Under the pieces are notes generated by a model. That model was given only the letters and a program-made list of their open reading frames with translations, was not told where the DNA came from and ran no database searches. From contig JAJCZJ010000123.1 of NCBI GenBank assembly GCA_029262455.1, positions 62,001 through 126,000 of the forward strand: a stretch of DNA of 64,000 nucleotides, in the 5' to 3' direction. The translations under genes were made by a program, and so were the position numbers. Positions 19,609 through 40,207 of the stretch are shown here, piece by piece (positions within the stretch are counted from its first letter, which is position 1; the number at the start of each line of letters is the position of its first letter). This DNA comes from Deltaproteobacteria bacterium. Lineage in GTDB: Bacteria > Desulfobacterota > Binatia > HRBIN30 > CADEER01.

Positions 19609-22600
19609 CTACTGCAAAACCATCTCGGGCGGGTTGACGCCTTCTCTGGACTGGAACTTGGCGCGGTCGTCGGGGCCGACACCTTTGATGGCGATGCTTA
19701 CGTCGCCGTCGACCCTTTGAGCGTTGATGTAGTTGTTCAATGCCGCGTTTGAGAATTCGATCCAACCGATTGTGTTCGGGGCCAAATTGAGGGTGCCGAG
19801 TAGGTTGCCGGATGCCGGCGCGTTATTCCAAGTGATGGCTGTTTCGGCCCAAGTATCGTCCGTCACCTCATAGAACTGGAAGCCCTGGAGATCTTCGCCT
19901 GTGATTGCTTCGCGGAAGAGGCGAAGCGTCGCTCCGGTGGCGTCGGAGGTGAGGCCGGTGACGTCAAATTTGACATAAATCTCTCGCTGGTCACCGCCCG
20001 GACTTTCGACGTGCAGGACAGTCTCGAGTCCGTGATTTTCGTTTGCTTCGCCCGGGTCATCGTTGCTCGTCTTGGTCCACGAATCTTCGGTCGGAACACA
20101 TGTGGCGTTGCGCGCGCAGTTTTCGTCGGGTGGCCAGACTCCGGTCGCTGTCCCGTCATCTCCAAACACGAGGGTCGGTCGATCGAAGCCGTCGCTCTCA
20201 TTGTTTCGCATTCCGTCGAGCTTGACGTGCTTATTGTCGGACCCTACCAAAATCAGCGTGAACAGATCGTTACCGGTTGCGACCTCCTCGGCGACTGCGT
20301 GGGAGAGCTCGACACTCCACCATTCGCCGTCGTCGACGACGGCGGAACCCTCGGGGTCGGTGGCGGATTTTGCGAGCCGTCCGGCGAAGCGTCCACGAGG
20401 CGGCACGACATCCCAATGGAGCCAGGTCGGGTGAAGTGGGGAGCCCGTCGTTACGTCAGAGTCACCGGTTCCCTCTTCCCATCCGTCGTCGCTGGTGTCC
20501 AGGTCGGTTTGCCAATTCTGAAGCACGTAAACCTTGGGGCCCTTGCCGTCTCGTGGTTTGCTGCACTCTTCGCCCATGATCGCGCAGTTCTCATGGTTCC
20601 GTACATGGACGAACAGAGTCGCGGTGGTTACCTCCGCGTCGATCGGCAGGATGTCGAAGGTCAGGTAGGATTCGTACTGATTCACGACTGTGCAGGTTCC
20701 GTTTCCGGTGCACTCGGTATCGTTGTTGCAGTCCTGTGAGTATGGGTTTGAGCCCGAGCAGCTCATGCCATCGTCTGCCGATACTTCCATTCGGTTCTTG
20801 TCACCGTTGCTCTCTTTCGGCTTGTTGCTGCGCGTGAACCCCTCCTTTGTCCCGTTGCAGACACGTTCGGTGGCCCTGCAGCTGGGATTCGCAACTTCAT
20901 CGCATCCGCAATCCGTATCGAGTGGGGGGGTGGCGTCTAGTTGAAACTGTTGCGCGGTAACCGGCGTGAAGGACAGCTTTGGTTCTTTCCCGGTAGTCTC
21001 TTTTGAGTAGTACTCGGTCAAGTAGCCGCTCGCCAAGTGACCTGAGAACGAATACATCACGTGAGAGCTTGATGGTCCAACATAGAGTTGGAAGAGATGT
21101 GTGACGTCGTACGGAGTGTAGATGTCTTGTGCGGCTCCGGGTTCGAGCGTGATGCCGAAGCCCTGGCGAAGTGCGCTGGGGACAGCGTTGGGAAACGCGG
21201 TGTTGAACCAGTCCCACGACATTTCGGGTTCGGTGACCACGTTGGCGGCTGGATCGACCCCGTGGAGAAAACCCGCATGGCTGGAGGTCATGTCGAGCGA
21301 AGACATGACGTTGAGAGTTGCGTCGATGGCTCCGGTCGAGCCATGCGGTACGTCGAATTTGAGCAGAGAGATACGCTCCTGAGGATTGCAGCCGCCCTTC
21401 CTGTGAGCACGCAGCCTGGGTAGCGTTGAAAAGACGTCCCCGCTGAATAACCCTGTCCAGATGTAGCCGTCGGCAACGGGAAGGGCCTCGACGACGGGAG
21501 TGCCTGCTGTCTCGAGGATGATGATTGTGCCGTTTGTGAACTCCACATCGTCGCCACCGAGTTCGGGGTCATTGATGACTAGCGCCGAGCCGTCCACCGA
21601 CACGTCGGTCAGCGTATTGACCGGCCAGGAGGGCACGTTCTGGTAGATCCCGGTCCCGATGTCGGGGTCGGCCAGTGTTCGCACAGCGGCCTGTACCGAG
21701 CGGATCAACGAGACGGACTGCAGTCGGTTGTTCATGGCGCTATCGAAGATTACGCAGTGGTCGCTGCCGGCGAAGCCGCCCGGATTGGGGTCCTCGCCTT
21801 CGAGACCATCGATTTGGCCCCCGAGGACGAGATTGTTTGCCGGGAAAAGGTACTGCCCGGGATTGTTGTCGTCCTCGATCGCTTCCATGACCAGCCGCCG
21901 AACGGCGGTGTTGTCCTTGAGCAAGTTATCGGTGCAATCGCCGCGCAGCGTGATGCCGCGATCTGAAAACGTGTTTCCTTCGATCAGGGCGCCGCTGGCC
22001 TCTTTCATGTGGAGACCCCAGTCGTCGGACCCGCTTGTGACGTTGCCGATTACCTGCGCGCCTTGGTTTCGCAGCAAGTAGATGGCTTCGAGGCCAGGGT
22101 TCTCGACGACGTTGTTGAGGATCAAGGCGCGGTCGGAGCCGCCTCCTATGTGAATTCCCTCGTCGCCGACGTCTTTTACGAGATTGTACTCAACCGTTAC
22201 ATCGTCGGCGTCGACGTCGACACCATAGGATCCCGGAATATTCTCGCCGTTGTCGATCCACCCGCAGCTTTCCGTGATGACTTGTGTGATTCCGTCTCCT
22301 ACGACGGTCTTGTTTGCTTTGACCTCGATACACCGCCGCCAGGTTCCAATCGTAATGTCACCGCCGACAACCCTGATGTTCTTGATCACTGCTTTGGTTG
22401 CGGTGGATTCCACCTTGATTCCGACGGTGTCGTATTCGCGGCCAGGGATCTGGGGATCGTCTGGCCATAAACTTGTCGGGCCGTGGATCGAAAAACCGGC
22501 GCCATCGAGTACGACATTGGCAGCGTTGATGCGCAGTCCGTGCTGATCGATCGGATCGGCGGTGCAATCGAGATCGCCCGGCAATGTGTAGTCTTCAGTG

Positions 22601-22755
22601 ACTGCATCGCCGCAACAACACGGGACTGCACCGCCGCAGTTTTGCGGAGCCGGCCGACTGGCGCACACCGCTGGTTCGGCCGTTGCCGTGTTCGCCCCGA
22701 GGAGCAGGGCGACGGCAAAGTTCAGTGCGAAGGAAACGAACCGTCTATCTGTCAT
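19609..22755 (-). CDS. Exported right-handed beta-helix protein with DNRLRE-type domains
   Basis: 1048 residues; ATG 22755 has AGGAG six bases upstream and starts a signal peptide (A-V-A-L-L-L-G-A-N-T-A-T-A). Residues about 45-330 are parallel beta-helix repeats (N-V-V-L-D-G-A-G, I-K-N-I-R-V-V-G-G, V-V-E-N-P-G-L-E-A-I). Three beta-sandwich domains follow at about 420-575, 610-840 and 870-1048, each with the L-x-F-D-V/I, A-T-L-x-V/L-x and W-x-E/T pattern of DNRLRE (CBM96-like) domains. The last has T-W-A-E-T-A-I-T-W-N-N-A-P. Probably a surface polysaccharide-binding or lyase-like protein; no catalytic residues were identified. Confidence 0.85.
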   Translation of the reverse strand: MTDRRFVSFALNFAVALLLGANTATAEPAVCASRPAPQNCGGAVPCCCGDAVTEDYTLPGDLDCTADPIDQHGLRINAANVVLDGAGFSIHGPTSLWPDDPQIPGREYDTVGIKVESTATKAVIKNIRVVGGDITIGTWRRCIEVKANKTVVGDGITQVITESCGWIDNGENIPGSYGVDVDADDVTVEYNLVKDVGDEGIHIGGGSDRALILNNVVENPGLEAIYLLRNQGAQVIGNVTSGSDDWGLHMKEASGALIEGNTFSDRGITLRGDCTDNLLKDNTAVRRLVMEAIEDDNNPGQYLFPANNLVLGGQIDGLEGEDPNPGGFAGSDHCVIFDSAMNNRLQSVSLIRSVQAAVRTLADPDIGTGIYQNVPSWPVNTLTDVSVDGSALVINDPELGGDDVEFTNGTIIILETAGTPVVEALPVADGYIWTGLFSGDVFSTLPRLRAHRKGGCNPQERISLLKFDVPHGSTGAIDATLNVMSSLDMTSSHAGFLHGVDPAANVVTEPEMSWDWFNTAFPNAVPSALRQGFGITLEPGAAQDIYTPYDVTHLFQLYVGPSSSHVMYSFSGHLASGYLTEYYSKETTGKEPKLSFTPVTAQQFQLDATPPLDTDCGCDEVANPSCRATERVCNGTKEGFTRSNKPKESNGDKNRMEVSADDGMSCSGSNPYSQDCNNDTECTGNGTCTVVNQYESYLTFDILPIDAEVTTATLFVHVRNHENCAIMGEECSKPRDGKGPKVYVLQNWQTDLDTSDDGWEEGTGDSDVTTGSPLHPTWLHWDVVPPRGRFAGRLAKSATDPEGSAVVDDGEWWSVELSHAVAEEVATGNDLFTLILVGSDNKHVKLDGMRNNESDGFDRPTLVFGDDGTATGVWPPDENCARNATCVPTEDSWTKTSNDDPGEANENHGLETVLHVESPGGDQREIYVKFDVTGLTSDATGATLRLFREAITGEDLQGFQFYEVTDDTWAETAITWNNAPASGNLLGTLNLAPNTIGWIEFSNAALNNYINAQRVDGDVSIAIKGVGPDDRAKFQSREGVNPPEMVLQ

Positions 22756-25660: not shown

Positions 25661-26713
25661 CTACTGGTCTTGGTAGACCGCGTCGCGCGAGTGAAAGCCG
25701 GCTCCGATCACGGTCTCGTCTAGATTCGCGCGGGTGACGGTGGTGACCTCGTCGAAGATCGACGGCACCTCGATCTTGCCGTTGAAGGTTCCGTGTTTCG
25801 CGATGATGGGCCGACCTTTGGCGAGGGTTACGGCGGCTTCCGCAGCGGTCGATGCCAGTTTGGTGATCGGCTTGAACACGGTCATGGACTGCTCGCCCGT
25901 GGCGATGCGCTGGCAGGCGACGAGGTCGGCGTCTTGTCCGGTGACGTAGATCGACCCGGCGAGGCCCTCCTCACGCAGTGCCTGAATTGCACCACCGGCA
26001 GTGCCGTCGTTGGAGGTCAGGACGCCGTCGATGCGGTCGCCGTGCCGCGTGATGGCGGCGTTCATGATTCGTTTGGCGTTCTCCGGCTTCCACTCGTTTG
26101 CCCAGTCTTCGTGAATGACCTCAATCGATCCAGACGCAATCGCTGGGTCCAGGGCTAGGTCCTGGCCAGCTTTTACGATAAATGCGTTGTTGTCGGTCTT
26201 TGATCCGTAGATGCGCACGATTCTGGCAGGGCGGTCGGACGGAGCGAGAACATCGACGAGGTATTGGCCCTGAAGCTGCCCGATGCGCTCGTTGTCGAAG
26301 GTGACATACAGGTCGAGATCGCAGTCGCGGATCAATCGGTCGTAGGCGATGACCGGAATATCGGCCTGGTGAGCCAAGCGGACGGCTTTGGCCATGGCCG
26401 ATCCATCGTGTGGCACGATGACGATCACGTCCACCTGGCTGGTGATCAGCGTCTCGATGTCGGCCATTTGGCGATTGTCGTCACTGTTGGCCGACAAAAC
26501 GGTTACATCGGCGCCCAACTCGCGGGCGCGTGCGACAAATGCGTCTCGATCGCGGGCCCAGCGAGTTTCCTGGAGCGTGTCCATCGAGAAGCCGATGTGG
26601 AGCTTGTCGGCTGCCGGGTCTTTGCGATCGGTACGGCCGTCTTGCCGAAGAACAGCCCCGATCAGGACGCTCAGGAACATCGATGCCACAACCAAGAGAG
26701 ACTTTGTCGTCAT
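25661..26713 (-). CDS. xylF: Periplasmic sugar-binding protein, XylF-type
   Basis: 350 residues with an N-terminal hydrophobic export signal (about residues 5-22). The periplasmic-binding-protein fold is clear: I-G-F-S-M-D-T-L-Q-E-T-R-W near residue 40, V-I-V-I-V-P-H-D-G-S-A, I-P-V-I-A-Y-D-R-L-I, and later T-G-Q-D-A-D. These match D-xylose-binding XylF proteins. First gene of the xylFGH operon, divergent from the FG-GAP gene. The intergenic region carries a repeat element rather than an obvious operator. No Shine-Dalgarno is apparent. Confidence 0.9.
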   Translation of the reverse strand: MTTKSLLVVASMFLSVLIGAVLRQDGRTDRKDPAADKLHIGFSMDTLQETRWARDRDAFVARARELGADVTVLSANSDDNRQMADIETLITSQVDVIVIVPHDGSAMAKAVRLAHQADIPVIAYDRLIRDCDLDLYVTFDNERIGQLQGQYLVDVLAPSDRPARIVRIYGSKTDNNAFIVKAGQDLALDPAIASGSIEVIHEDWANEWKPENAKRIMNAAITRHGDRIDGVLTSNDGTAGGAIQALREEGLAGSIYVTGQDADLVACQRIATGEQSMTVFKPITKLASTAAEAAVTLAKGRPIIAKHGTFNGKIEVPSIFDEVTTVTRANLDETVIGAGFHSRDAVYQDQ

Positions 26714-26780
26714 TGTTGCGCGCCGGTCATCTGCTCTCTGTACTCCAAAAGCGATGCTTGCTTCTAGGCTCCGATTTGTG

Positions 26781-26889
26781 GTGGGTCACTTTGATTGAAC
26801 GGCGGGAGCAGCCGGGTACCGGGAGGGCGCCGCCGAGCCGCGTACAACGCGACTTCCGTTGCACCGCACTCAAAATCAAAGTGACCCAC
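26781..26889. repeat. 109-bp MITE-like element with 16-bp perfect terminal inverted repeats
   Basis: GTGGGTCACTTTGATT at 26781-26796 is matched exactly, inverted, at 26874-26889. The core contains a 34-base block (26808-26841) that recurs almost identically at 42869-42901. No target-site duplication is obvious. It sits between divergent xylF and the FG-GAP gene and may supply or disturb their promoters. Confidence 0.65.
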
Positions 26890-26948
26890 TACCGTACTGT
26901 CGTCGTCTCTGGTGCATGAAGCGCGACTCGCCTAGTCTTCGGTCTAGT

Positions 26949-28283
26949 ATGAGATGGATTTCGCAGATCGTTGTTGGTTTTGGCCTGGTTCTCCAGATGG
27001 CGGACGTTGGATTCGCCTGTCCTGGCGATTGCAATGGGGACGGTCGCGTCGCGGTTTCGGAACTCGTTCTGTCCGTGCGGATCGCTCTGCGTGAGGCATC
27101 GGTCGATCGTTGCCGGCAAGTGGACGCGGACGATTCTGGCACAGTGACGATCGCCGAGCTGGTCGGCGCCGTGCGCGCGGCGCTCGGTGGATGCGGTCCG
27201 AGGTTGGCGTTCGCAGCTCCGGAACTTTATGCGACCGGTGATTCGCCGCGGTCGGTTGCGGTTGCGGATTTCGATGGAGACGGATGGCCGGACATTGCCG
27301 CGGGTAATCACATTTCGCACGATCTGTCTGTGCTGCTGAACGATGGCACTGGGAAGTTTGGCGACGAGTCACGCTTTGCGGTCGGGCGGATACCGTTGGG
27401 GACAGCGGTTGGCGACTTTGACGCCGATGGCTTCGTCGATATCGCGACAGCAAACGGGGGCAGCGATGACGTATCGATCCTGCTCGGGATCGGCGATGGA
27501 ACGTTTGCAACCGAACAACGATTTCCGGCTGGGCAGGACGCTCGGACGATCATTGCAGCCGACGTCGATGGCGGTGGTACGCTCGACCTGATCGTCGCGG
27601 CGCCTTCGAGCGCAGGTGTTGTTCTATTGTTGGGACGTGGCGATGGTGTTTTCGATCGCCTCGTCGTCGGTGGCGGTTTCAATCCGTGGTGGGCCAGTCT
27701 CGGTGACGTGACGGGGGATGGGGTCGATGACCTGGTCACGGCCAACGCGGATTCCAGTGATCTCACGATACTGGCCGGGCTGGCAGGCGGTGGGTTTGTC
27801 GGGCGCAGCCGGATTGCGTTGTCTTCGGCTCCCTTCTCGGTGGCGATTGCCGACCTCGACGGTGATGGCGAGATGGATCTACTGACAGGCAATGGACGCG
27901 ACGCGAGCGTCTCGTTGCTGCGCGGTGGCGGCGGTGGAGCGTTCGCAGAGGCGCAGATCGTGGCCGTTGGCGACGGCCCGTTTCCGGTGCACATCGCCGA
28001 TGTGAACGCCGACTCGATTCTGGATATCGTCACGGCAAACGAGTTCTCAGGTGACCTTTCGGTCCGGTTGGGCGTCGGCGACGGGTCCTTCGAGGGCGAC
28101 TTTCGAGTTTCCTCCGGGCCGTCGCTTTTTGCGGTAGCGATCGTCGATGTTGACCGAAACGGCACTCTGGATCTGGTCACGGCACTGGGTGGTTCGGACC
28201 AGGTGGCTGTTCATTTGAATCAGTCCCGAGATGCAGGCTCGGTGCCGGTTCCTCGGCGACCAGAAAGAATCCGCTTGTACTAA
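26949..28283 (+). CDS. Exported FG-GAP/VCBS beta-propeller protein with N-terminal dockerin-like module
   Basis: 444 residues from ATG 26949, chosen because it starts a signal peptide (I-V-V-G-F-G-L-V-L, ending V-G-F-A-C); ATG 26916 is an in-frame alternative and neither has a strong ribosome binding site. Residues about 24-82 are a 59-residue Cys-bounded twin-EF-hand module (27018-27194). The rest is about seven FG-GAP/VCBS repeats with integrin-type calcium loops (D-F-D-G-D-G-W-P-D, D-V-T-G-D-G-V-D-D, D-L-D-G-D-G-E-M-D), forming a probable seven-bladed propeller. Likely a calcium-stabilised surface binding protein. Confidence 0.88.
   Translation: MRWISQIVVGFGLVLQMADVGFACPGDCNGDGRVAVSELVLSVRIALREASVDRCRQVDADDSGTVTIAELVGAVRAALGGCGPRLAFAAPELYATGDSPRSVAVADFDGDGWPDIAAGNHISHDLSVLLNDGTGKFGDESRFAVGRIPLGTAVGDFDADGFVDIATANGGSDDVSILLGIGDGTFATEQRFPAGQDARTIIAADVDGGGTLDLIVAAPSSAGVVLLLGRGDGVFDRLVVGGGFNPWWASLGDVTGDGVDDLVTANADSSDLTILAGLAGGGFVGRSRIALSSAPFSVAIADLDGDGEMDLLTGNGRDASVSLLRGGGGGAFAEAQIVAVGDGPFPVHIADVNADSILDIVTANEFSGDLSVRLGVGDGSFEGDFRVSSGPSLFAVAIVDVDRNGTLDLVTALGGSDQVAVHLNQSRDAGSVPVPRRPERIRLY
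27018..27194 (+). other. Dockerin-like module B (protein-coding subregion)
   Basis: 59 codons Cys to Cys, with loops G-D-C-N-G-D-G-R-V and D-A-D-D-S-G-T-V, each followed by a helix with E-L-V. It sits directly after the signal peptide. Confidence 0.65.
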
Positions 28284-28329
28284 CAAAAATTGTTTGGTAA
28301 TCACGCAATAGATGGAGAAGGGGTCGTAG

Positions 28330-31300
28330 ATGAGATTCCGGGTGTTTGGCCGGTCGTGTCTCCTGGTTCAGCTTTGCATGGGTCTTTTCGTGGTGACGCC
28401 ATTCATGTTGACGTCCTTTTTGGCGACTCCTTCTTCGGCAGGCCTGGTGAGCTGTACGGGAGACTGCAATGGCGACAAATCGGTTCGTATTTCCGAGTTA
28501 GTGACGATGGTCAACATCGCGCTCGGTCGGAGTGCATTGTCGGCGTGTGAGAACGGCGACACGAACGGCGACGGGTCGATTCGAATCAACGAACTGGTGC
28601 TCGCCGTCAGCCACGCGCTAGGTGAGTGCGTACCGGACATCCAGCCCCGGCCGTTCAAGAATCGCGTCGATCACCCATTTGATCCCTACCTGGCCTTCTC
28701 GGCGACCTTTGATGGTCCCTCGTGGGTGAAGTTCACGATTCGCGTGAGCGAGCCCGGCGTCGTCTATTTTCAGAACAGCTCGCGGACTCCGTTCCATCAC
28801 GATTTCATTGCCTCGACCTTGCAGCCGTACGTCGGCCTGGACCCCGACGAGATCGACGCCGTGTCACTGCATGCTGATGGTCAGGAGCTCGTTTTGGGGG
28901 CGGTTCTGTATTCGCCGTCGGCGCCCTACGAGATCGGCATCCAGCTGGTTCGCCAGGATGCCTATAGCGCCGAAGAGGTGATTCGATACTTCGACGCAGT
29001 ACGGGCGTCGGTCGTCGCTGAATCGTCCGTACCGTTCTTCTATTTTCCAACATTCGAGCAGCAGCGCGGCGCCGAGGAAAATCGCGAGGCGCTCGAGTCC
29101 GCCGGAGTGCGCATCAGTTCTACGGCGCGGTGGTCGTCCGGTGATGAATGCTACGCCCTGGGGTGGGCACATGGACGAGTCGTCTTCGTCGCCGGGGGCG
29201 ATATCGAAGCTGCCTACGAGACAGGCGCATTGGGGCCCGAGGATATTCTATTGACTGACGGGGTTCCGGCGGAGATTCCGTTCGTCGCGGGCGTCATCTC
29301 GTTGGCGCCGTCGACCCCGAACTCGCATGTGGCGATTCTTGCCGCCGATTGGGAAGTGCCGTTCGTCTTCTTGGCGCTCGAGGACTCGGCAGCTGCCGCG
29401 CAGGCTTTGGTCGGTCGCGAGATCGTCATGCGGGCCACGCCGGTTTCCCCGCGCTTCTTTGTTGGTCACGACTTCAACCCAGAAGAATGCGAAGTACGGT
29501 TGGTTGATGTCGATGGCGCGTTGACATCTGACGTCGAGAACCATTTGCGCGACCTCAAGCGCGCCCCGGATCTGGCCTTGCGGCCGTTCGTTCCGGCGGG
29601 GAGTTACCGCGCCGACGTAGCCACCGCGACCCCCGAAGATATTGTCACGATTGGCGGCAAAGCCGCCAACTATGGATTCTTGATGCGTGAAATTCCAGGC
29701 AATACGCGGCCGGCGATTGCCTTCACTTTTGACCTTTGGAACGATTACCTGGATCAACCAATGCCTGGCGACGTCTCCTTGCGAGAGCGGATCGCCGCGC
29801 TGCTGACGCCGTTTCCAACCTATCCACCGACCGACTTTGCGGCGCTCTTCTCTGCACTCGATGAGATCCGCGATCTGATCGACGACGAGGCCGACTTTAC
29901 CGGCGACCAGAGGCAATCGATTCTGCAGGCTCTCCAACAACAGGGATTTGATCCGCTTCACAGGATCCGCTTCCGCTCCTCGACCAATGTCGAAGACAGC
30001 GACGTATTCACCGGCGCTGGCTTGTACGAAAGCTCGAGCGGCTGTTTAGCCGATGATCTCGATGCTGACGATGTTGGGCCGAGCTTGTGCGAGGCGACTC
30101 GAGACAGCGAGCGTGGTGTATTTCGCTCCTTGCGCAAGGTGTTCAAGAGTTTTTACAACGACAACGCTTTTCTCGAGCGATTGCGGCACCGGGTCGATGA
30201 AGCGACCGTTGGAATGGCAGTCCTTGTGCATCGAAACTTTCCAGATGAGACGGAGCTAGCCAACGGCGTTGCGACGCTACGGACAACATTGGGTCCGAGT
30301 TCGGAGATGACCGTCGTGACTCAGCCTGGCGACGTCTCAGTGACCAATCCGGAGGACGGAGGTCGCCCTGAGGTGGTCGATCTTTTCGTCTCGCCCACCA
30401 ATGTCTTCCCGAATCTCCGGCAGGGGAGCGATCTGCTGCCGCTCGGGGCCACGGTGTTGCAAATGCCGGAGGAATACGTCGAACTCGCCAATCTACTCAG
30501 TGAGGTAGCGGTCGCTTTCGGTGAGTTTCACGGCGAGAGGCAGTTCAACATCGAGTTCGAGTTCAAGAAGATCGTCGACGAAGGGTTGGTCATAAAACAG
30601 GTGCGTCGCATCCCGGGCGTCACGCCTGGCTTCGACTCGACGCCGGTACTGATCAACACTCCGACCGATCTTTGTACGTTCCAAGGGGAGATCTCCGATG
30701 TCTATGCCAACTATCGGCTAAAATCCCGTTGGCAAGTCGACTTCGAAAGTGGTCCGGTCGAAGAAAGCGGCGATTCGATCTACGCCTCGGCCGATCACAC
30801 CTATGTGGTGAACGGCGCGTTGGCCCAACTCAACGGCGCGCCAGCCAGTTGGCGGGATGCCTCACGCGGTTCGTTTGATCCCCAGGCTGGCGGCGTGATC
30901 GGGCTTGCCGACTCTTGGACCGTCGGTGACGGTGAAGCGGCGAGGGTGATGACCCTCAAGACGCGGGTGCCGACCAATGTTGGACCCGCCTTCCTACCGA
31001 TCGTCTTCCCTTCGGATCTGGGCTTCACTCTCGAAGCCCAGCACGCCGTCGCTGTTCCCTATCGAAACTTCGACGATACGATCTTGACTCGGTCGAGCGA
31101 GCAAGTGCAGCTCCTCGAGTGCTCGGATCGTCGACCGCTGACCGGCCGCTACTTGCTCCAGGATCGGATGTTTTCGGATGGACCAATCGAAATTGACGCG
31201 GGCTACTACTGGCCTCCGTTTCCGACGGGCGCGATAGCCGGTTACACCGCGCCGCTCGACCGATGGGTTGCAACGTCGATCTCCGGAGTGGTCGCAGAAC

Positions 31301-31530
31301 CGGTGACGCTCAGCGGATACTTTTCTCAGACATATCGGCCCGAGCATCATAACTTCACCGAGAACTTCATTTTCGACCCCCATCTCGAGGAGGGCGTCGA
31401 TCCGGGTCTGATTGCGGCCTGGGACGCCCGCGGAATCCAGGCGTTGATCAAACCGTCTGGCTTCGACGCACCTCCCTTTCAAGTACTGACGTTGGACGGT
31501 CGGATCGTCGAGGTCGCGGACTTGCCTTAG
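28330..31530 (+). CDS. Exported dockerin-like / glucan-water-dikinase-like protein (phosphohistidine + ATP-grasp)
   Basis: 1066 residues; AGAAGGGG at 28316-28323 precedes ATG 28330. A signal peptide (to about residue 37) leads to a dockerin-like module (residues 42-100). An unassigned domain follows, then a swivelling phosphohistidine domain with T-P-N-S-H333-V-A-I-L, then a PPDK_N-type ATP-grasp. Its Lys444 lies in G-G-K-A-A-N, Arg549 in R-S-S-T-N-V-E-D, G-A-G-L-Y-E-S lies near 563-569, and I-K-Q-V-R near 756. The order phosphohistidine before ATP-grasp and the G-A-G-L-Y-E-S motif resemble glucan/phosphoglucan, water dikinases rather than PEP synthase, which has the opposite order plus a C-terminal barrel. 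About 290 further C-terminal residues are unassigned. An exported ATP-grasp enzyme is unusual. Confidence 0.82.
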   Translation: MRFRVFGRSCLLVQLCMGLFVVTPFMLTSFLATPSSAGLVSCTGDCNGDKSVRISELVTMVNIALGRSALSACENGDTNGDGSIRINELVLAVSHALGECVPDIQPRPFKNRVDHPFDPYLAFSATFDGPSWVKFTIRVSEPGVVYFQNSSRTPFHHDFIASTLQPYVGLDPDEIDAVSLHADGQELVLGAVLYSPSAPYEIGIQLVRQDAYSAEEVIRYFDAVRASVVAESSVPFFYFPTFEQQRGAEENREALESAGVRISSTARWSSGDECYALGWAHGRVVFVAGGDIEAAYETGALGPEDILLTDGVPAEIPFVAGVISLAPSTPNSHVAILAADWEVPFVFLALEDSAAAAQALVGREIVMRATPVSPRFFVGHDFNPEECEVRLVDVDGALTSDVENHLRDLKRAPDLALRPFVPAGSYRADVATATPEDIVTIGGKAANYGFLMREIPGNTRPAIAFTFDLWNDYLDQPMPGDVSLRERIAALLTPFPTYPPTDFAALFSALDEIRDLIDDEADFTGDQRQSILQALQQQGFDPLHRIRFRSSTNVEDSDVFTGAGLYESSSGCLADDLDADDVGPSLCEATRDSERGVFRSLRKVFKSFYNDNAFLERLRHRVDEATVGMAVLVHRNFPDETELANGVATLRTTLGPSSEMTVVTQPGDVSVTNPEDGGRPEVVDLFVSPTNVFPNLRQGSDLLPLGATVLQMPEEYVELANLLSEVAVAFGEFHGERQFNIEFEFKKIVDEGLVIKQVRRIPGVTPGFDSTPVLINTPTDLCTFQGEISDVYANYRLKSRWQVDFESGPVEESGDSIYASADHTYVVNGALAQLNGAPASWRDASRGSFDPQAGGVIGLADSWTVGDGEAARVMTLKTRVPTNVGPAFLPIVFPSDLGFTLEAQHAVAVPYRNFDDTILTRSSEQVQLLECSDRRPLTGRYLLQDRMFSDGPIEIDAGYYWPPFPTGAIAGYTAPLDRWVATSISGVVAEPVTLSGYFSQTYRPEHHNFTENFIFDPHLEEGVDPGLIAAWDARGIQALIKPSGFDAPPFQVLTLDGRIVEVADLP
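28453..28629 (+). other. Dockerin-like module C (protein-coding subregion)
   Basis: 59 codons Cys to Cys, with loops G-D-C-N-G-D-K-S-V and D-T-N-G-D-G-S-I, each followed by a helix with E-L-V. The first loop has Lys in place of the usual Gly, which could weaken one calcium site. Confidence 0.65.
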
Positions 31531-31541
31531 AGGGAGTCGTT

Positions 31542-32669
31542 TTAGGCGGTTTGGAGAAAGTCTTGTTTTGAGACAGGCAGGGCGAGGCGAAATGTCGACC
31601 CTACGCCGAGCTTGCTGTCCACAGAGATGGTGCCGCCGTGAGCTTCGACGACAGATCGGACGATGAATAGTCCGAGCCCGGTTCCGTCGATCGTGCGTGT
31701 TGAGTCCGACCTACTGTACTTGTCGAAGATGGTCGCGCATTCCTCTGGTCGAATGCCGCATCCGGTGTCGGTGATGTTGAGTGTGACTTCGTGGTCGTCC
31801 GCCGCGATTTCAGCGGTGACCTTGCCGCCGTCGCCGGTGAACTTGATGGCATTGCCGATCAGGTTTGCGACGACCCGTTCGAGATAGGCACGATCGACGT
31901 CGGCTGGTCCGACATTGAGCGCAGCGTTGATGAGAAGCTCGACGTTTTTTGTTGCCGCCATTGGACGGTGGCGGCGGATCACCCGTGATACGAGTTCTGT
32001 GACGTGAACCGCCTCGCGTTCGAACACCAGCCGACCATTTTCAATGCGGTCCATTTCGACAAAGTTGCTGACCAGATCGAGCGTGGTGAGTGCGTTGTCC
32101 TTGATGCGTTCGAGAAGGTCGTGCCCGGTTTCGGTCACAGGCGTCTCCTCGCTGAGAATGTCTGCGTAGTTGTAAATGATGTTGAGAGGGTTGCGGATGT
32201 CATGGCTCAGCATCGAGCGGAACAGGCTGCGTTCTCTCATGAGAGATCGCCTCTCCAGGTTGCGCTCGATGACGTAAGAGAGCTCGTTGAGATGCGAGAG
32301 GTCCGGGCGTTTCACGACGTAGTCCCATGCCCCGCTGCGCAGCGCGGCTATCGCTACAGTGAGGTCGTCGTTGCCGGTTACGACGATCAGTGGGACTTGG
32401 TTGTCAGTCCCCACGAGTTTCGTCAGTAGCTCGAACTCCGCGACGTCGGGTAAACCGAGGTCCAACAAGACGATACAATCGTTCTCTTCGGCGACAGCTC
32501 TTAGGCAGTCTGCGCCCGTGCCCTCGAGGCGGCATTCCAGTCCCAGAGCCTTGAGAGCCCGCCGTGTCAGTCGAGCTTGGCCCTCGTCGTCTTCGGCGAC
32601 GATGACTTTCGGGCAATCCTGCAGTGCGATGCGGGAATTGCGAAGCTCGTTCAAGTCGGATGTAGTCAT
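31542..32669 (-). CDS. Hybrid receiver-histidine kinase (REC-HisKA-HATPase)
   Basis: 375 residues, soluble. An N-terminal receiver (about 18-135) has the phospho-acceptor Asp in V-L-L-D-L-G-L-P-D and the conserved Lys in V-V-K-R-P. A dimerisation/phosphotransfer helix carries the His in M-L-S-H-D-I-R-N-P-L-N. The ATPase domain has N-box L-I-G-N-A-I-K-F-T and G-boxes D-T-G-C-G-I and G-T-G-L-G-L-F. Third gene of an operon with a sensor kinase and a lone receiver. The architecture suggests a receiver-regulated second kinase that integrates the relay. It ends 11 bases from the convergent dikinase-like gene. Confidence 0.92.
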   Translation of the reverse strand: MTTSDLNELRNSRIALQDCPKVIVAEDDEGQARLTRRALKALGLECRLEGTGADCLRAVAEENDCIVLLDLGLPDVAEFELLTKLVGTDNQVPLIVVTGNDDLTVAIAALRSGAWDYVVKRPDLSHLNELSYVIERNLERRSLMRERSLFRSMLSHDIRNPLNIIYNYADILSEETPVTETGHDLLERIKDNALTTLDLVSNFVEMDRIENGRLVFEREAVHVTELVSRVIRRHRPMAATKNVELLINAALNVGPADVDRAYLERVVANLIGNAIKFTGDGGKVTAEIAADDHEVTLNITDTGCGIRPEECATIFDKYSRSDSTRTIDGTGLGLFIVRSVVEAHGGTISVDSKLGVGSTFRLALPVSKQDFLQTA

Positions 32670-36061: not shown

Positions 36062-37672
36062 TCAAGCGTGTGTCGCCTTAGTCGACGCTCGGAAATCACT
36101 CCATTCAAGACCGAACTTAGCGAGGTACTTGCGCAATCGATCAGCGTCGTTCGCGGTCTTTCTCCGCTGCCGGGATACTGCGAAGAGTTTGCGCCCGGCG
36201 TCGGAGAGGCTACCGCTAGAGGCGCAAATGCGCAGAACGTCGGCGAGTTGAGTTCTGTCGAATCGATCGATGGCGGCCGCGGCCTCTGCGCCGAGTGTCT
36301 CCTCGATGATCGCGTCGTCGGACGAGCCCCCGTCGGACCAAGAGGTAGTCAGGCGGGTGATCTCGTCGTCGACTGTGGCAACGTTGATCCGCCCGCCGGG
36401 TGCCAGAGTCGCCATCCGGGTGATAGCCGCGTTGAAGTCGCGAAAATTGCCTCGCCATGATGAATCTGGTGCGGCGGCAAAATGAAGGAAGCGGCGTCGC
36501 GCTTCCTTGTTCATGGTTACGTGGTGGCCAACGCTCTGGGAGGAGTGCTCGATCTCATATTCGAGGTTTGGCTCGATGTCCTCGCGCCGGCTCGCAAGGC
36601 CCGGGAGTCGAAAAGTCCAGAGGTTGATGCGGGCAAGTAGGTCCTCGCGAAACTGTCCGCTGGCAACGGCGGACTCGAGATCACGGTTGGTTCCAGCGAT
36701 GAGCTGGAAGTCGCTGGAGACCTCACGGTCGGAACCGACAGGCAGGAACTTCTTTACCTCGATGGCGCGCAGGAGCATTGCTTGCTCGTCGAGTCCGAGT
36801 TCGCCGATCTCATCCAAGAAGAGGACGCCGCCTTGGGCCGTGCGCATTAGCCCGGGGCGGTCGCGCGTGGCGCCGGTGAAGGATCCTTTGATGTGGCCGA
36901 ATAGCGTAGACATCGCCGTATCGCCGCGCAGTGTTGCGCAGTTGACCTCCACCAGGGGGCCTTCGACCTGGCGGCGTTGACGCTTGAGGTCGTAGACTCG
37001 CCGCGCGAGTTGCGACTTGCCCGCGCCGGTGGGGCCGGTGAGCAGAAGCGGTGCGCTCGAAACGGTTGCCACCTGCTCGACCCGCTCGATGATCTCGTTG
37101 AAGGCTGGGTTGCGCGTCGCGATCCCGGCTTTCAGGAACGACAGACCCTCCTGCTTCTCCTGGACGAAGCGCGATGCCAGCTGATCGTACCGCGAGAGGT
37201 CGAGGTCGATGATGGTGTAGCTGCCGGGCTGGTTCGAATTGCGCCGCGGCGGTGGAGACGTCTGGAGAAGCCGGCCGGGCAAGTAGCGCGCCTCGGTCAG
37301 CAAGAACAAGCAAATCTGCATCACGTGGGTGCCGGTCGTCACGTGGACCAAATACTCCTCGCTCTCGGGCGAGAAGGGGTAAGCGCGCGCGAAGTCGTGG
37401 AGTGCGCCGTAGACCTCGACGAAGTCCCACGCGTCGCGAACGTCGAGCAAATGCGTCCGGACCTTCGTCTCAGGGGAAATCCCGGCGACGTCCTCCTCGA
37501 TCTCGGCGACGATCGCCTCGTCCCTTGGCAGGTAGAGGAGCTCGCAACGATCGACCACGAGGTCGTCGTGGCGGGTCAGATCGACGGATGGCCGCCAGCG
37601 AGTCCAGCGATCCTTGCCGCCGCGATCGAGGTTCGATCCGACGATACTTAGAACGGTAGTTGCCGCAGGCAT
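36062..37672 (-). CDS. rtcR: RtcR, sigma-54-dependent activator of RNA repair genes
   Basis: 536 residues. Residues 1-180 are the RtcR ligand-binding (CARF-like) domain, with V-H-V-T-T-G-T-H-V-M-Q-I as a landmark. Residues about 185-430 are an AAA+ domain with Walker A G-P-T-G-A-G-K-S, a sigma-54 contact loop reading G-S-F-T-G-A (usual GAFTGA) and Walker B V-L-F-L-D-E-I-G. The C-terminus is a DNA-binding helical region. In E. coli, RtcR activates rtcBA in response to damaged RNA ends or 2',3'-cyclic-phosphate oligonucleotides. It is divergent from slipin-rtcB-rtcA. Confidence 0.95.
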   Translation of the reverse strand: MPAATTVLSIVGSNLDRGGKDRWTRWRPSVDLTRHDDLVVDRCELLYLPRDEAIVAEIEEDVAGISPETKVRTHLLDVRDAWDFVEVYGALHDFARAYPFSPESEEYLVHVTTGTHVMQICLFLLTEARYLPGRLLQTSPPPRRNSNQPGSYTIIDLDLSRYDQLASRFVQEKQEGLSFLKAGIATRNPAFNEIIERVEQVATVSSAPLLLTGPTGAGKSQLARRVYDLKRQRRQVEGPLVEVNCATLRGDTAMSTLFGHIKGSFTGATRDRPGLMRTAQGGVLFLDEIGELGLDEQAMLLRAIEVKKFLPVGSDREVSSDFQLIAGTNRDLESAVASGQFREDLLARINLWTFRLPGLASRREDIEPNLEYEIEHSSQSVGHHVTMNKEARRRFLHFAAAPDSSWRGNFRDFNAAITRMATLAPGGRINVATVDDEITRLTTSWSDGGSSDDAIIEETLGAEAAAAIDRFDRTQLADVLRICASSGSLSDAGRKLFAVSRQRRKTANDADRLRKYLAKFGLEWSDFRASTKATHA

Positions 37673-37766
37673 AGCGAGACTTCTAAAACATTCGCCAAAA
37701 TAATCAAATTCTTTGCAGGTGAAGATTTGTTCGTGGGATCTCCTACGATCGAAGAATCATGCAAAT

Positions 37767-37784
37767 ACCTGAAAATACTCAGGT
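37767..37784. promoter_or_regulatory. Inverted repeat, possible RtcR enhancer site
   Basis: ACCTGA, six bases, TCAGGT, followed by a short T-run. It lies about 35 bases upstream of the candidate -24 element, closer than usual for an enhancer site, so it might instead be a small terminator hairpin. Confidence 0.35.
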
Positions 37785-37815
37785 TTTTGGAGAATCGCAG
37801 TTTGGCCTCGGTTCC

Positions 37816-37831
37816 TGGCATGTCCGTCGCA
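37816..37831 (+). promoter_or_regulatory. Candidate sigma-54 promoter of the slipin-rtcBA operon
   Basis: TGGCATGTCCGTCGCA matches the consensus TGGCACG-N4-TTGCW at 10 of 12 defined positions, with the invariant GG and GC at the correct spacing. It lies downstream of the divergent sigma-54 activator gene rtcR. A second, poorer GG/GC pair is at 38020-38035. Confidence 0.6.
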
Positions 37832-37874
37832 CTGTATCCCAGCGAACGCGTTGCAGTGGAAGACGTGTTGGACG

Positions 37875-38060
37875 GGCCGGGGGCGGTCGTGCGGAGCCGC
37901 CCTCGGCCGGGATTCTGATGAGATGCGAAATCGAAAAGCGAATATCGAATATCGAATGGGGCCGAGCAGCCGTCAGCGCGATCGCGTCAGCGGTTCTGCA
38001 TGTTGGCCCTTTCGACTGGTGGCGCGGCTTCGGCCGCATTCGGGTTCAACTCCCTTTCAC
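37875..38060 (+). ncRNA. Candidate structured, partly tRNA-like leader RNA of the rtc operon
   Basis: The segment contains a 12-bp stem-loop (37875-37886 with 37897-37908, one G-T pair), a five-bp stem capped by UUCG (38024-38037) and directly after it a T-arm-like GGGTTCAACTCCC with only three good pairs. Some enterobacterial rtc loci carry Y RNAs with tRNA-like modules, which motivates the suggestion. No complete tRNA fold was found. Confidence 0.25.
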
Positions 38061-38194
38061 CGAGGGCGCGCGGTACTTGCGGCGACGCAGCTGGTGCTCG
38101 GCTTTGTGGGCGTGTTCGTCCCCGTCGACCCGCCAGCCGGTGCCGCGCGTCCTTGGGACTGAGTATTGCTCGGAATTTTTCAAAGGAGCCGCGA

Positions 38195-38956
38195 ATGAAC
38201 GAGATCGAATTGTATGGAACGTTGGCTCGCCGCGGATCTCGCTGGGCGCTGCCGTACGTGAAGCGTGTGATCATCGATGAATGCCATCAAGGAGTGGTTG
38301 TGCGTCGCGGCGTCGCGGAGGAGCGTCTCGGTGCCGGCGCGTACTGGGTCTTTGGATGGGAAACGAGGGTCGAGGTGTACGACCTGCGGGAGAAGATCAT
38401 CAACGTTCCTGGGCAGGAAGTTTTGAGTCGCGACAACGTGGGGCTCAAGGTCAGTCTTGTTGTGCGGTACTCGATTGCTGATCCGGGTTTGCTGCGGAGC
38501 CGAGCGGCGTTTCCGCTCGAGCAGATCTATTCCTCTGCTCAGATCGCGTTGCGGGCGGCCGTCGGCGGTGTTGAAGTGGCTGCGCTACTCGAACGTCGGT
38601 TGGAGATCGCCGAGCAGCTTCGCGGCGCAGTGTCCTCCGACTTGGGCAAGATCGGAGTTTCGATTGCGACGGTGGACATCCGTGACGTGATGTTTCCGGG
38701 AGAGCTGAAGAAGATCTTCGCCGAGGTCGTGCGTGCCCAGAAAGAGGGCCAGGCTGCGTTGGAGCGGGCCCGTGGTGAGAGTGCTGCCTTGCGCAACCTG
38801 GCGAACGCGGCGCGCATTCTGGAGGCTCACCCGGCGTTGATGAACTTGCGGACGCTACAGACGATTTCGGAGACCGAGGGGCGTGGGCACACATTTGTCC
38901 TCGGATTGCCTGCTGGGTTGATGCACAGTGGGAAAGGCGGTGGTGCGGGCGACTAG
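38195..38956 (+). CDS. Slipin-family SPFH/Band 7 protein in the rtc operon
   Basis: 253 residues from ATG 38195, fixed by AAAGGAG at 38182-38188, six bases away. An SPFH domain fills most of the protein (V-V-V-R-R-G near 34, R-E-K-I-I-N-V-P-G-Q-E near 70, and L-K-V-S-L-V-V-R-Y), followed by a helical Ala/Glu-rich tail (about 185-225). Unlike most slipins it lacks a clear N-terminal membrane helix. It is 24 bases before rtcB and shares the rtcR-controlled region, which suggests a role with RNA repair, perhaps at membranes. Confidence 0.9.
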   Translation: MNEIELYGTLARRGSRWALPYVKRVIIDECHQGVVVRRGVAEERLGAGAYWVFGWETRVEVYDLREKIINVPGQEVLSRDNVGLKVSLVVRYSIADPGLLRSRAAFPLEQIYSSAQIALRAAVGGVEVAALLERRLEIAEQLRGAVSSDLGKIGVSIATVDIRDVMFPGELKKIFAEVVRAQKEGQAALERARGESAALRNLANAARILEAHPALMNLRTLQTISETEGRGHTFVLGLPAGLMHSGKGGGAGD

Positions 38957-38980
38957 CACCATTGAGAATGGGAATCTGGG

Positions 38981-40207
38981 ATGGAAAAGAACTACGAAAC
39001 ACTGGAAGTCGCGGGCGGGTGCCCGGTCAAGGCGTGGGTGCGGGGCGTCGCGATGGAAGACGAGGCAAGGCGGCAGCTCGAGAACGTCGCGCAATTGCCC
39101 TTCGTCCACGGTTGGGTTGCCGCGATGCCGGATGTGCACTGGGGTATCGGCGCGACCGTCGGCAGTGTGATCCCGACCTTTGGGGCAATCGTGCCGGCGG
39201 CGGTCGGGGTCGATATCGGGTGTGGGATGATGGCCGTAAAGACGACGCTGACGGCCAACGAGCTACCGGACAGTCTGCGCGAGCTGCGTTCTTCGATCGA
39301 GAAGGCGGTGCCGCACGGGCGCACGAGTCGGGGTGGGCGCGGCGACCGGGGTGCTTGGGGGAAACTTCCCGAGCACGCGTCGCGGCGGTGGTCCAAGCTT
39401 GCCGCTGCCTATGACGTGATCATCGGCAAGCACAAGAAATTGGATCGCGGCAACTGCGCGAATCACCTGGGTACGCTCGGGACCGGCAATCACTTCATCG
39501 AGGTTTGTCTCGATGAGGCGGATGCGGTGTGGTTCATGCTTCACAGTGGCTCGCGCGGCGTCGGCAATCGGATCGGCAGCTACTTCATCGCGCTGGCGCG
39601 CGATGACATGCGGCGCAATTGGGCGAATCTTCCGGACAAGGACCTGTCGTACTTCACGGAAGGCAGCGAACACTTTGACGATTACGTGGAAGCGGTTGGT
39701 TGGGCGCAGTCTTTTGCGGCGGAGAACCGTGAGACGATGATGGAGGCAGTTGTTCGCTCGGTTCGTTCGACTGCAAAGATTCCGGAGTTTTCCTTGGCGG
39801 AGAAGGCTGTGAACTGCCACCACAACTACGTCGCTCGCGAGCATCACTACGGAAAGGATGTGTTTGTCACCCGCAAGGGTGCGGTTCGGGCTGGGCTCGG
39901 TGATCTCGGCATTATTCCCGGGAGCATGGGTGCGCGTTCCTATATCGTTCGAGGCAAGGGCAACCCGGAGAGTTTCGAGAGTTGCAGTCACGGCGCGGGG
40001 CGCGCCATGTCACGCACCCAGGCGCGCAAGAAGTTTACGGTTGCCGATCACGAAGCGGCGACGGCTGGAGTGGAGTGCCGCAAGGATGCGGCGGTGATCG
40101 ACGAAACTCCGGCGGCGTACAAGCCGATCGAGGCGGTGATGGAGGCGCAGAAGGATCTGGTGGACATCGTCCATACCCTGCGCCAGGTGGTCTGCGTCAA
40201 AGGTTAA
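38981..40207 (+). CDS. rtcB: RNA-splicing ligase RtcB
   Basis: 408 residues, the same length as E. coli RtcB. It joins 2',3'-cyclic-phosphate or 3'-phosphate RNA ends to 5'-OH ends using GTP and Mn2+. Metal and nucleotide residues are visible: M-P-D-V-H, G-V-D-I-G-C-G-M, N-H-L-G-T-L-G-T-G-N-H-F and H-S-G-S-R-G. His337 in S-C-S-H-G-A-G-R is at the number of the guanylylated His of E. coli RtcB. It lies between slipin and rtcA on one strand with gaps of 24 and 29 bases. Confidence 0.97.
   Translation: MEKNYETLEVAGGCPVKAWVRGVAMEDEARRQLENVAQLPFVHGWVAAMPDVHWGIGATVGSVIPTFGAIVPAAVGVDIGCGMMAVKTTLTANELPDSLRELRSSIEKAVPHGRTSRGGRGDRGAWGKLPEHASRRWSKLAAAYDVIIGKHKKLDRGNCANHLGTLGTGNHFIEVCLDEADAVWFMLHSGSRGVGNRIGSYFIALARDDMRRNWANLPDKDLSYFTEGSEHFDDYVEAVGWAQSFAAENRETMMEAVVRSVRSTAKIPEFSLAEKAVNCHHNYVAREHHYGKDVFVTRKGAVRAGLGDLGIIPGSMGARSYIVRGKGNPESFESCSHGAGRAMSRTQARKKFTVADHEAATAGVECRKDAAVIDETPAAYKPIEAVMEAQKDLVDIVHTLRQVVCVKG

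Follow-up and report, generated by a model that had tools for sequence, protein, structure and literature searches.

Domain organization of a predicted exported dikinase-like protein

The 64,000-nucleotide stretch analyzed here (contig JAJCZJ010000123.1, positions 62,001 to 126,000, of the Binatia assembly GCA_029262455.1; hereinafter, the window, with coordinates counted from its first nucleotide) contains a gene for a dikinase-like protein of 1,066 residues with a predicted export signal (28330..31530, on the forward strand, as are all features below unless stated otherwise). The open reading frame (ORF) starts with ATG, ends with a stop codon and is preceded, six bases ahead of the ATG, by the ribosome-binding-like sequence GGAGAAGGGG (28314-28323). 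Upstream of it lies a partner gene (26916..28283) for which a Pfam scan and sequence reading indicate a signal peptide, a dockerin-like pair and FG-GAP repeats; 46 bases separate its stop from the dikinase-like gene, and a promoter scan of 26650-31700 found none, compared with 1.3 expected.

The window protein begins with a putative Sec-type signal peptide (residues 1-37; 28330..28440; proposed cleavage after SSA), recognized by sequence reading and hydropathy, which is followed by a dockerin-like module of two EF-hand-type loops containing four cysteines (residues 41-101; 28450..28632). Next come an N-terminal domain (residues 107-266; 28648..29127), which is common to two compact exported relatives and was modeled mostly at a predicted local distance difference test (pLDDT) score of 75-90, and a phosphohistidine swivel domain (about residues 267-395, with a fold match over 243-395; 29128..29514) bearing the predicted phospho-carrier H333 within the motif TPNSHVAIL (29326..29328). 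The PPDK_N-like ATP-grasp domain, delineated by Pfam and fold matches (about residues 424-769; 29599..30636), contains K444 (29659..29661) and R549 (29974..29976), which by motif correspond to Lys22 of RPH and PPDK and to Arg117 of RPH, respectively. It also contains the GAGLYES motif (residues 562-568) and, as defined by the family alignment, an Asp-rich loop between Cys572 and Cys587 (CLADDLDADDVGPSLC; 30043..30090) and the closing catalytic residues E744, Q757 and R759 (30559..30606). The family alignment and genome searches identify the remainder of the protein (residues 770-1066; 30637..31527), with its conserved P.HHN motif, as a family-specific C-terminal domain. The original prediction, made from the sequence of this gene, had named a signal peptide, a phosphohistidine motif at H333 and an ATP-grasp domain with K444, R549 and GAGLYES; H333, K444, R549 and GAGLYES were located where it had placed them.

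Conservation of the catalytic residues and predicted fold

Scanning of a genome-contig collection recovered seven homologous loci (L017-L023). Three of these are from metagenome-assembled genomes of the window's genus (L017, recorded as Candidatus Binatia, L018 and L019; 66, 65 and 70% identity), one each from a Deltaproteobacteria record (L020, 40%) and Myxococcota (L021, 39%), and two from Verrucomicrobia (L022 and L023; best-segment identity, 49 and 41%). These loci, along with further members found in genome searches, are referred to below as family A. PPDK_N (PF01326) matched residues 440-649 of the window protein at 36.9 bits (cut-off, 27) and all five of the family members scored (best E 1e-14). 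The PEP-utilizers profile (PEP, phosphoenolpyruvate) stayed below threshold in the members scored (E 0.18 in the window protein; 5e-4 at best; 3/5 members at E <= 10); the swivel assignment is based on the His motif and the fold matches as well. When the Protein Data Bank (PDB) was searched with the window sequence by phmmer, only weak matches, to a reductase and dockerins, were obtained; the family profile retrieved PEP synthase at E 4e-4.

In an AlphaFold model built from nine aligned sequences, the predicted ATP-grasp domain closely resembles those of RPH (5hv1; Z 28.0, root mean square deviation [rmsd] 2.7, 292 aligned residues) and PEP synthase (Z 27.2, rmsd 2.6, 289 aligned), with lower scores for HpeI (Z 21.7 at rmsd 6.3) and PPDK (Z 19.4). 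Positions 206-358 of the model (residues 243-395 of the protein) match RPH (5fbu) within its residues 584-867 (Z 10.8, rmsd 2.4, 101 aligned), model positions 234-375 resemble the end portion of a pyruvate kinase (Z 9.7), and a helix is predicted to begin at H333. Thus, the model contains the ATP-grasp site on which the original prediction depended, and its absence is excluded by the fold match and the invariant residues.

H333, K444, R549, S568, E744, Q757 and R759 are identical in all 12 aligned family members, which also share an acidic residue (Asp or Glu) at position 742. This alignment comprised the members other than L018, L019, L022, L023 and a second copy in genome G608; the motifs are complete in L018 and L023 and intact as far as readable in L019 and L022. 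Among 10 near-full-length members (that is, leaving aside L115 and L129), 112 of the 960 positions are invariant. E744, Q757 and R759 presumably correspond to Glu323, Gln335 and Arg337 of PPDK, as judged by motif likeness. R549 and S568 lie 19 residues apart, just as Arg117 and Thr136 do in RPH, where, according to the excerpted text of PMC4844700, the latter two residues and Lys22 position the ATP phosphates. As read from the alignment, the window protein has the complete set of dikinase catalytic residues.

Export signals across the family and its relatives

Export was judged by reading of the sequences and by a simple pattern script combining a hydrophobic-run rule with a lipobox pattern. 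Predicted export signals are present in all 13 family members with a readable N-terminus, namely, the window protein, L017, L018, L019, L021 and L022 by reading and L110-L114, L128 and L129 by script; L020, L023, L115, L132 and the second G608 copy are outside this count. A lipobox is apparent in six members (L021 by reading and L110-L114 by pattern). The script flagged 7/7 new members compared with 1/8 (L058) weakly matching proteins of the phylum sample, presumably ordinary PEP synthases or PPDKs. Hence, a signal peptide is lacking in no readable member of the family proper, in line with what the original prediction expected of homologs, whereas the more distant L045 shows none.

These data bear on the most conventional explanation, namely, that the gene encodes a normal cytosolic PEP synthase whose start codon was misassigned. 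To our knowledge, PPDK_N enzymes of known function are cytosolic, which favors this possibility, but it was rejected on account of the export signals in 13/13 readable homologs, six of them with a lipobox, and is further contradicted by the lack of a PEP/pyruvate domain and by the disulfide-like cysteine pattern; we consider it exceedingly improbable.

More distant relatives from Myxococcota, Binatia and other groups, which we assign to subfamilies B, C and D, resemble family A in the swivel His and the catalytic set and are mostly flagged for export, too. Outside the family, the script flagged 13 of the 15 relatives whose frame is closed at the 5' end (L106-L109, L118-L125, L130, L131 and L045 examined). 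In subfamily D, two frames have a closed 5' end; of these, the script picked out L047 but not L105, although the N-terminus of the latter reads like a signal peptide. L105 is itself encoded by the window genome (contig C19, 1440-4385, reverse strand), as a second phosphohistidine plus PPDK_N protein with a 982-residue frame. L045 (L045:3460-5472) is a compact relative of 671 residues, with no evident export signal, encoded upstream of a metalloprotease-like ORF.

Distribution and phylogeny

All counts from genome searches are lower bounds, with few candidates scored per genome (two per genome in the phylum samples). Full-family matches were found in at least 4 of 148 genomes of the class, all from the window's genus, and 15/148 had any match at E <= 0.001; in the wider phylum sample, at least 1 of 297 genomes, the window's own, carries the full family. 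In the Myxococcota phylum sample, which includes the genomes of L021 (G434) and L020 (G433), the family is present in at least 8 of 282 genomes (nine loci above 500 bits; next best, 195), and in the Verrucomicrobiota sample, which includes the genome of L022 (G435), in at least 3 of 288 (above 700 bits; next best locus, 154). The family model matched at E <= 0.001 in at least 136 of the 282 Myxococcota-phylum genomes, with some of the weak matches possibly representing ordinary PEP synthases, and different kinds of exported dikinase-like protein occur together in genomes of this phylum (L106-L109, L110-L127). No relatives were found in 139 viral stretches or in the plasmids searched.

In a midpoint-rooted tree of the ATP-grasp region (35 rows), family A (11 rows) forms a clade with 98/98 support, nested within a 23-row clade (96/94) of mostly exported proteins, which is made up of the A and C rows, L127 and all B-type rows except L045. 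The split from six ordinary PEP synthase/PPDK rows received 92/79, under the tool's mark, and the window genome's own PPDK formed a long branch. Rows L122, L130, L117, L126, L057 and L064 failed the cut for the tree region, and L018, L019, L022, L023, L031, L063, L115, L119, L124 and L132 were not entered. The K, R, E, Q, R set is complete in 7/7 aligned relatives of subfamilies B, C and D, in which the swivel-motif His was also read. No named family was found for these subfamilies; such proteins presumably carry the generic NCBI name 'PEP/pyruvate-binding domain-containing protein'.

Terminal domains, cysteines and the Asp-rich loop

The N-terminal domain is common to two subfamily B proteins (E 6e-7 and 9e-7, compared with 1.5 for the best of 800 shuffled sequences); against the same background, sharing with the other relatives could not be demonstrated (E 0.19 in subfamily C, E 0.059 in L045 and no match in subfamily D). 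The C-terminal domain, folded alone, reached a pLDDT of 51.9, and its comparison with the PDB yielded no match better than E 0.2. All four of its matches in the 148 class genomes lie within dikinase-like genes, and it is present in 7/7 carrier genomes compared with 0/3 genomes holding other relatives. Subfamilies B, C and D differ from family A in that no C-terminal domain of this type was found in them, and they also lack the Cys572-Cys587 loop: it is missing from the aligned subfamily B and D rows, and in the two subfamily C rows the insertion is shorter and contains neither cysteine.

Six core cysteines are invariant in 5/5 members, and Cys572 and Cys587, which bracket the Asp-rich loop, are retained in all 12 aligned members, whereas L128 has lost Cys274, Cys387, Cys782 and Cys931, all four together. 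The strict retention of the former pair and the joint loss of the latter four suggest that the family A proteins contain disulfides, and the conserved cysteines fit an oxidizing location. The Asp-rich loop probably has a role in Ca2+ binding.

Relationship to known dikinases

The closest listed structural counterpart, RPH of Listeria monocytogenes, shares with the window protein the ATP-grasp fold, the Lys22/Arg117 pair (K444/R549) and a phosphohistidine swivel. RPH is a cytosolic enzyme, has Thr136 in place of S568 and, as judged from the aligned ranges, would lack both terminal domains of the family as well as its Cys/Asp loop. The domain order is also different: the ATP-grasp domain of RPH comes first and His825 late (excerpted text of PMC4844700), whereas in the window protein the swivel domain precedes the ATP-grasp domain. 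The phenol dikinases HpeHI, CreHI and PpsAB, with an HpeI-like ATP-grasp domain and swivel His chemistry (PMC12167813, in part), are likewise comparable but consist of two separate subunits acting on phenols. These resemblances raise the alternative that the window protein is a periplasmic detoxifier or scavenger of small molecules, akin to RPH or HpeHI/PpsAB. Besides the listed folds, of which RPH is the closest and HpeI scores lower, this idea could draw on genomes G433 and G434, each with at least three relatives of the A, B and C types that are exported where the N-terminus is readable. However, no drug-binding domain was recognized, and no resistance or catabolic neighborhood is common to the nine neighbor ORFs scanned, so that we view such a function as rather unlikely.

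PEP synthase and PPDK share with the window protein the ATP-grasp fold, the motif-assigned K, R, E, Q, R set and the Ser-His swivel motif. The window protein differs from these enzymes in that its swivel domain precedes the ATP-grasp domain, it has no PEP/pyruvate domain and it is predicted to be exported: no PEP-binding-barrel family was detected in Pfam scans of the window protein and family members, and the NCBIfam PEP synthase model scored 23.2 bits on the window protein, compared with a cut-off of 739.75. Given that the direction of the PPDK reaction differs between organisms (PMC5371819, in part), the window protein might act in reverse or hydrolytically outside the cell, dephosphorylating an extracellular compound or degrading ATP for scavenging. 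The missing PEP/pyruvate-binding domain speaks against this scenario, as does the lack of a common phosphatase or nucleotide-uptake partner among the scanned neighbors, where a phosphatase-like gene was identified only beside L022, and we regard it as very improbable.

The original prediction had likened the protein to glucan, water dikinases (GWD), and this comparison held in part. In GWD1 and PWD/GWD3, as in the window protein (H333 before K444; 243-395, then ~424-769), the swivel domain precedes the ATP-grasp domain; the GWD domain order and GLY(D/E)S loop are both similar to those seen here. The window protein differs in being bacterial and predicted to be exported, and the specific tie was unsupported. 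GWD1_pHisD (PF22973) had no match at E <= 1 in the window genome, and membership in GWD was rejected on this basis; the same profile gives matches below its cut-off in 5 of 14 control genomes. No starch-binding module (CBM45 or CBM20) was detected by Pfam in the window protein or seven relatives, and the best listed folds were RPH and PEP synthase; no GWD chain was among the best 50 fold matches of each fold search, which does not exclude a relationship.

The same observations bear on the possibility that the window protein is an extracellular glucan or glycan, water dikinase that places phosphate on a cell-surface polysaccharide. In its favor are the domain order and the sugar-type ATP-binding cassette (ABC) transporter genes encoded upstream on the opposite strand. 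This alternative is countered by the missing GWD1_pHisD match and by the lack of a carbohydrate-binding module in the window protein and the seven scanned relatives, and reading (not a search) of the region upstream of L019 showed an acyl-CoA-synthetase-like ORF and no sugar transporter. The neighboring transporter was accordingly discarded as a functional clue, and we consider the glycan dikinase unlikely.

The dockerin-like module and the gene neighborhood

The dockerin-like module, also part of the original prediction, scored below the Dockerin_1 cut-off in the window protein (15.1 vs 22.9 bits). Nevertheless, it is real, because the genome contains at least 143 other matches to this stretch (145 minus the gene itself and one dikinase-like paralog; 150 of 166 candidates scored, some of the matches containing stop codons). 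The module was not seen in homologs outside the window's lineage. The cap is thus a lineage-wide module rather than a feature of the enzyme family: the window's genus adds it, and several Myxococcota-phylum members have a lipobox instead. A model of the family plus the cap gave 88, 100 and 111 matches in three relatives, mostly to the cap in the rows listed. The window genome holds a putative large cohesin/dockerin-like system (dockerin-like proteins, e.g., L006-L012), with three cohesin domains over the cut-off (L068-L070) and one below; the proteins that contain the former three also have an HEIAHG motif and a dockerin-like pair. Among the best-ranked open-license PMC literature, we found no paper on a dockerin system in Binatota.

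A homolog of the FG-GAP partner adjoins the dikinase-like gene in both testable relatives, L018 (60%) and L019 (67%); the L017 contig ends before the respective position. Directly upstream of the L022 homolog is a 2-phosphosulpholactate phosphatase-like gene (L022:4626-5678), and a similar-looking ORF occupies the same place in L023; the homolog genes of L022 and L023 both appear frameshifted. Elsewhere in the window are an RNA repair cluster (36062-40207), with genes for an RtcR-type regulator and the RtcB ligase followed, by reading, by a cyclase-like ORF, and a gene (19609-22755) for a beta-helix protein with a CBM96 module and a signal-peptide-like start.

An active dikinase outside the cytoplasm?

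From the export signals, domain order, predicted fold and catalytic residues, we infer that the balance tips slightly toward the window protein being a dikinase with activity outside the cytoplasm, at the envelope or extracellularly. Following Sec export, disulfides would form and Ca2+ would probably be bound; the ATP-grasp domain would bind ATP, and the swivel domain would dock, with H333 taking the phosphoryl group and AMP and inorganic phosphate being released. The swivel would then turn to an acceptor held by the N-terminal and/or C-terminal domain and phosphorylate it; candidate acceptors are small molecules, proteins and glycans of the envelope or the extracellular space. ATP would come from leakage, lysis or vesicles.

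Several observations weigh against an active exported enzyme. ATP is scarce outside cells, making the export of a dikinase-like enzyme odd, and its supply there is unexplained; the activity is a prediction from sequence and model. With respect to export, the N-termini do not stand out by hydropathy alone (1.74 in L018 vs 1.83 elsewhere), the hydrophobic-run rule of the script gave a hit within the truncated L115 as well, at an internal stretch, and, outside the family, L045, L124 and L105 were unflagged. Strict cysteine pairing is contradicted by L129, which has Gly at position 274 yet keeps Cys387. The confidence of the model is middling (mean pLDDT 62.5; predicted template modeling score 0.39), with blocks at pLDDT 43-55 around model positions 521-560, within the ATP-grasp domain. 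In addition, the alignment truncated the PPDK of the window genome and placed part of it wrongly, so that equivalence to PPDK residues is by motif. Finally, PPDK_N covers only profile positions 3-186 of 328 in the window protein and its matches end early in relatives as well (position 173 in L017, 185 in L021 and 171 in the frameshifted L022), implying that the second half of the ATP-grasp domain has diverged. This divergence, along with the low ATP outside cells, would suit an ATP-binding pseudo-enzyme or receptor that senses extracellular nucleotide with no phosphate transfer. The fixation of the ATP-grasp catalytic residues and the swivel His in 12/12 members argues otherwise, and we deem a pseudo-enzyme quite unlikely. 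The remainder of the ATP-grasp domain appears to be present, given that the fold aligns over ~424-769 and E744, Q757 and R759 are invariant. Furthermore, the Michaelis constant of RPH for ATP is 8.4 uM (Table 2 of PMC4844700), so that micromolar ATP could, in principle, suffice for a dikinase.

Beyond the activity of the window protein, a broader proposal, to which we give slightly less than an even chance, is that Myxococcota, Binatia and Verrucomicrobiota harbor a large, undescribed group of exported dikinases, both lipoproteins and secreted proteins, which would be stabilized by disulfides and perhaps Ca2+ and would phosphorylate envelope or extracellular acceptors using extracellular or vesicle-borne ATP or another donor. 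We found no description of exported dikinases among the best-ranked open-license PMC literature, and dikinases have so far been understood as cytosolic ATP enzymes. If the proposal is correct, a conserved exported branch with an intact site would imply one of two things: the envelope has ATP or another donor available and puts it to use, or the fold performs chemistry that has not been assayed. The phylogenetic spread of the family offers many natural variants.

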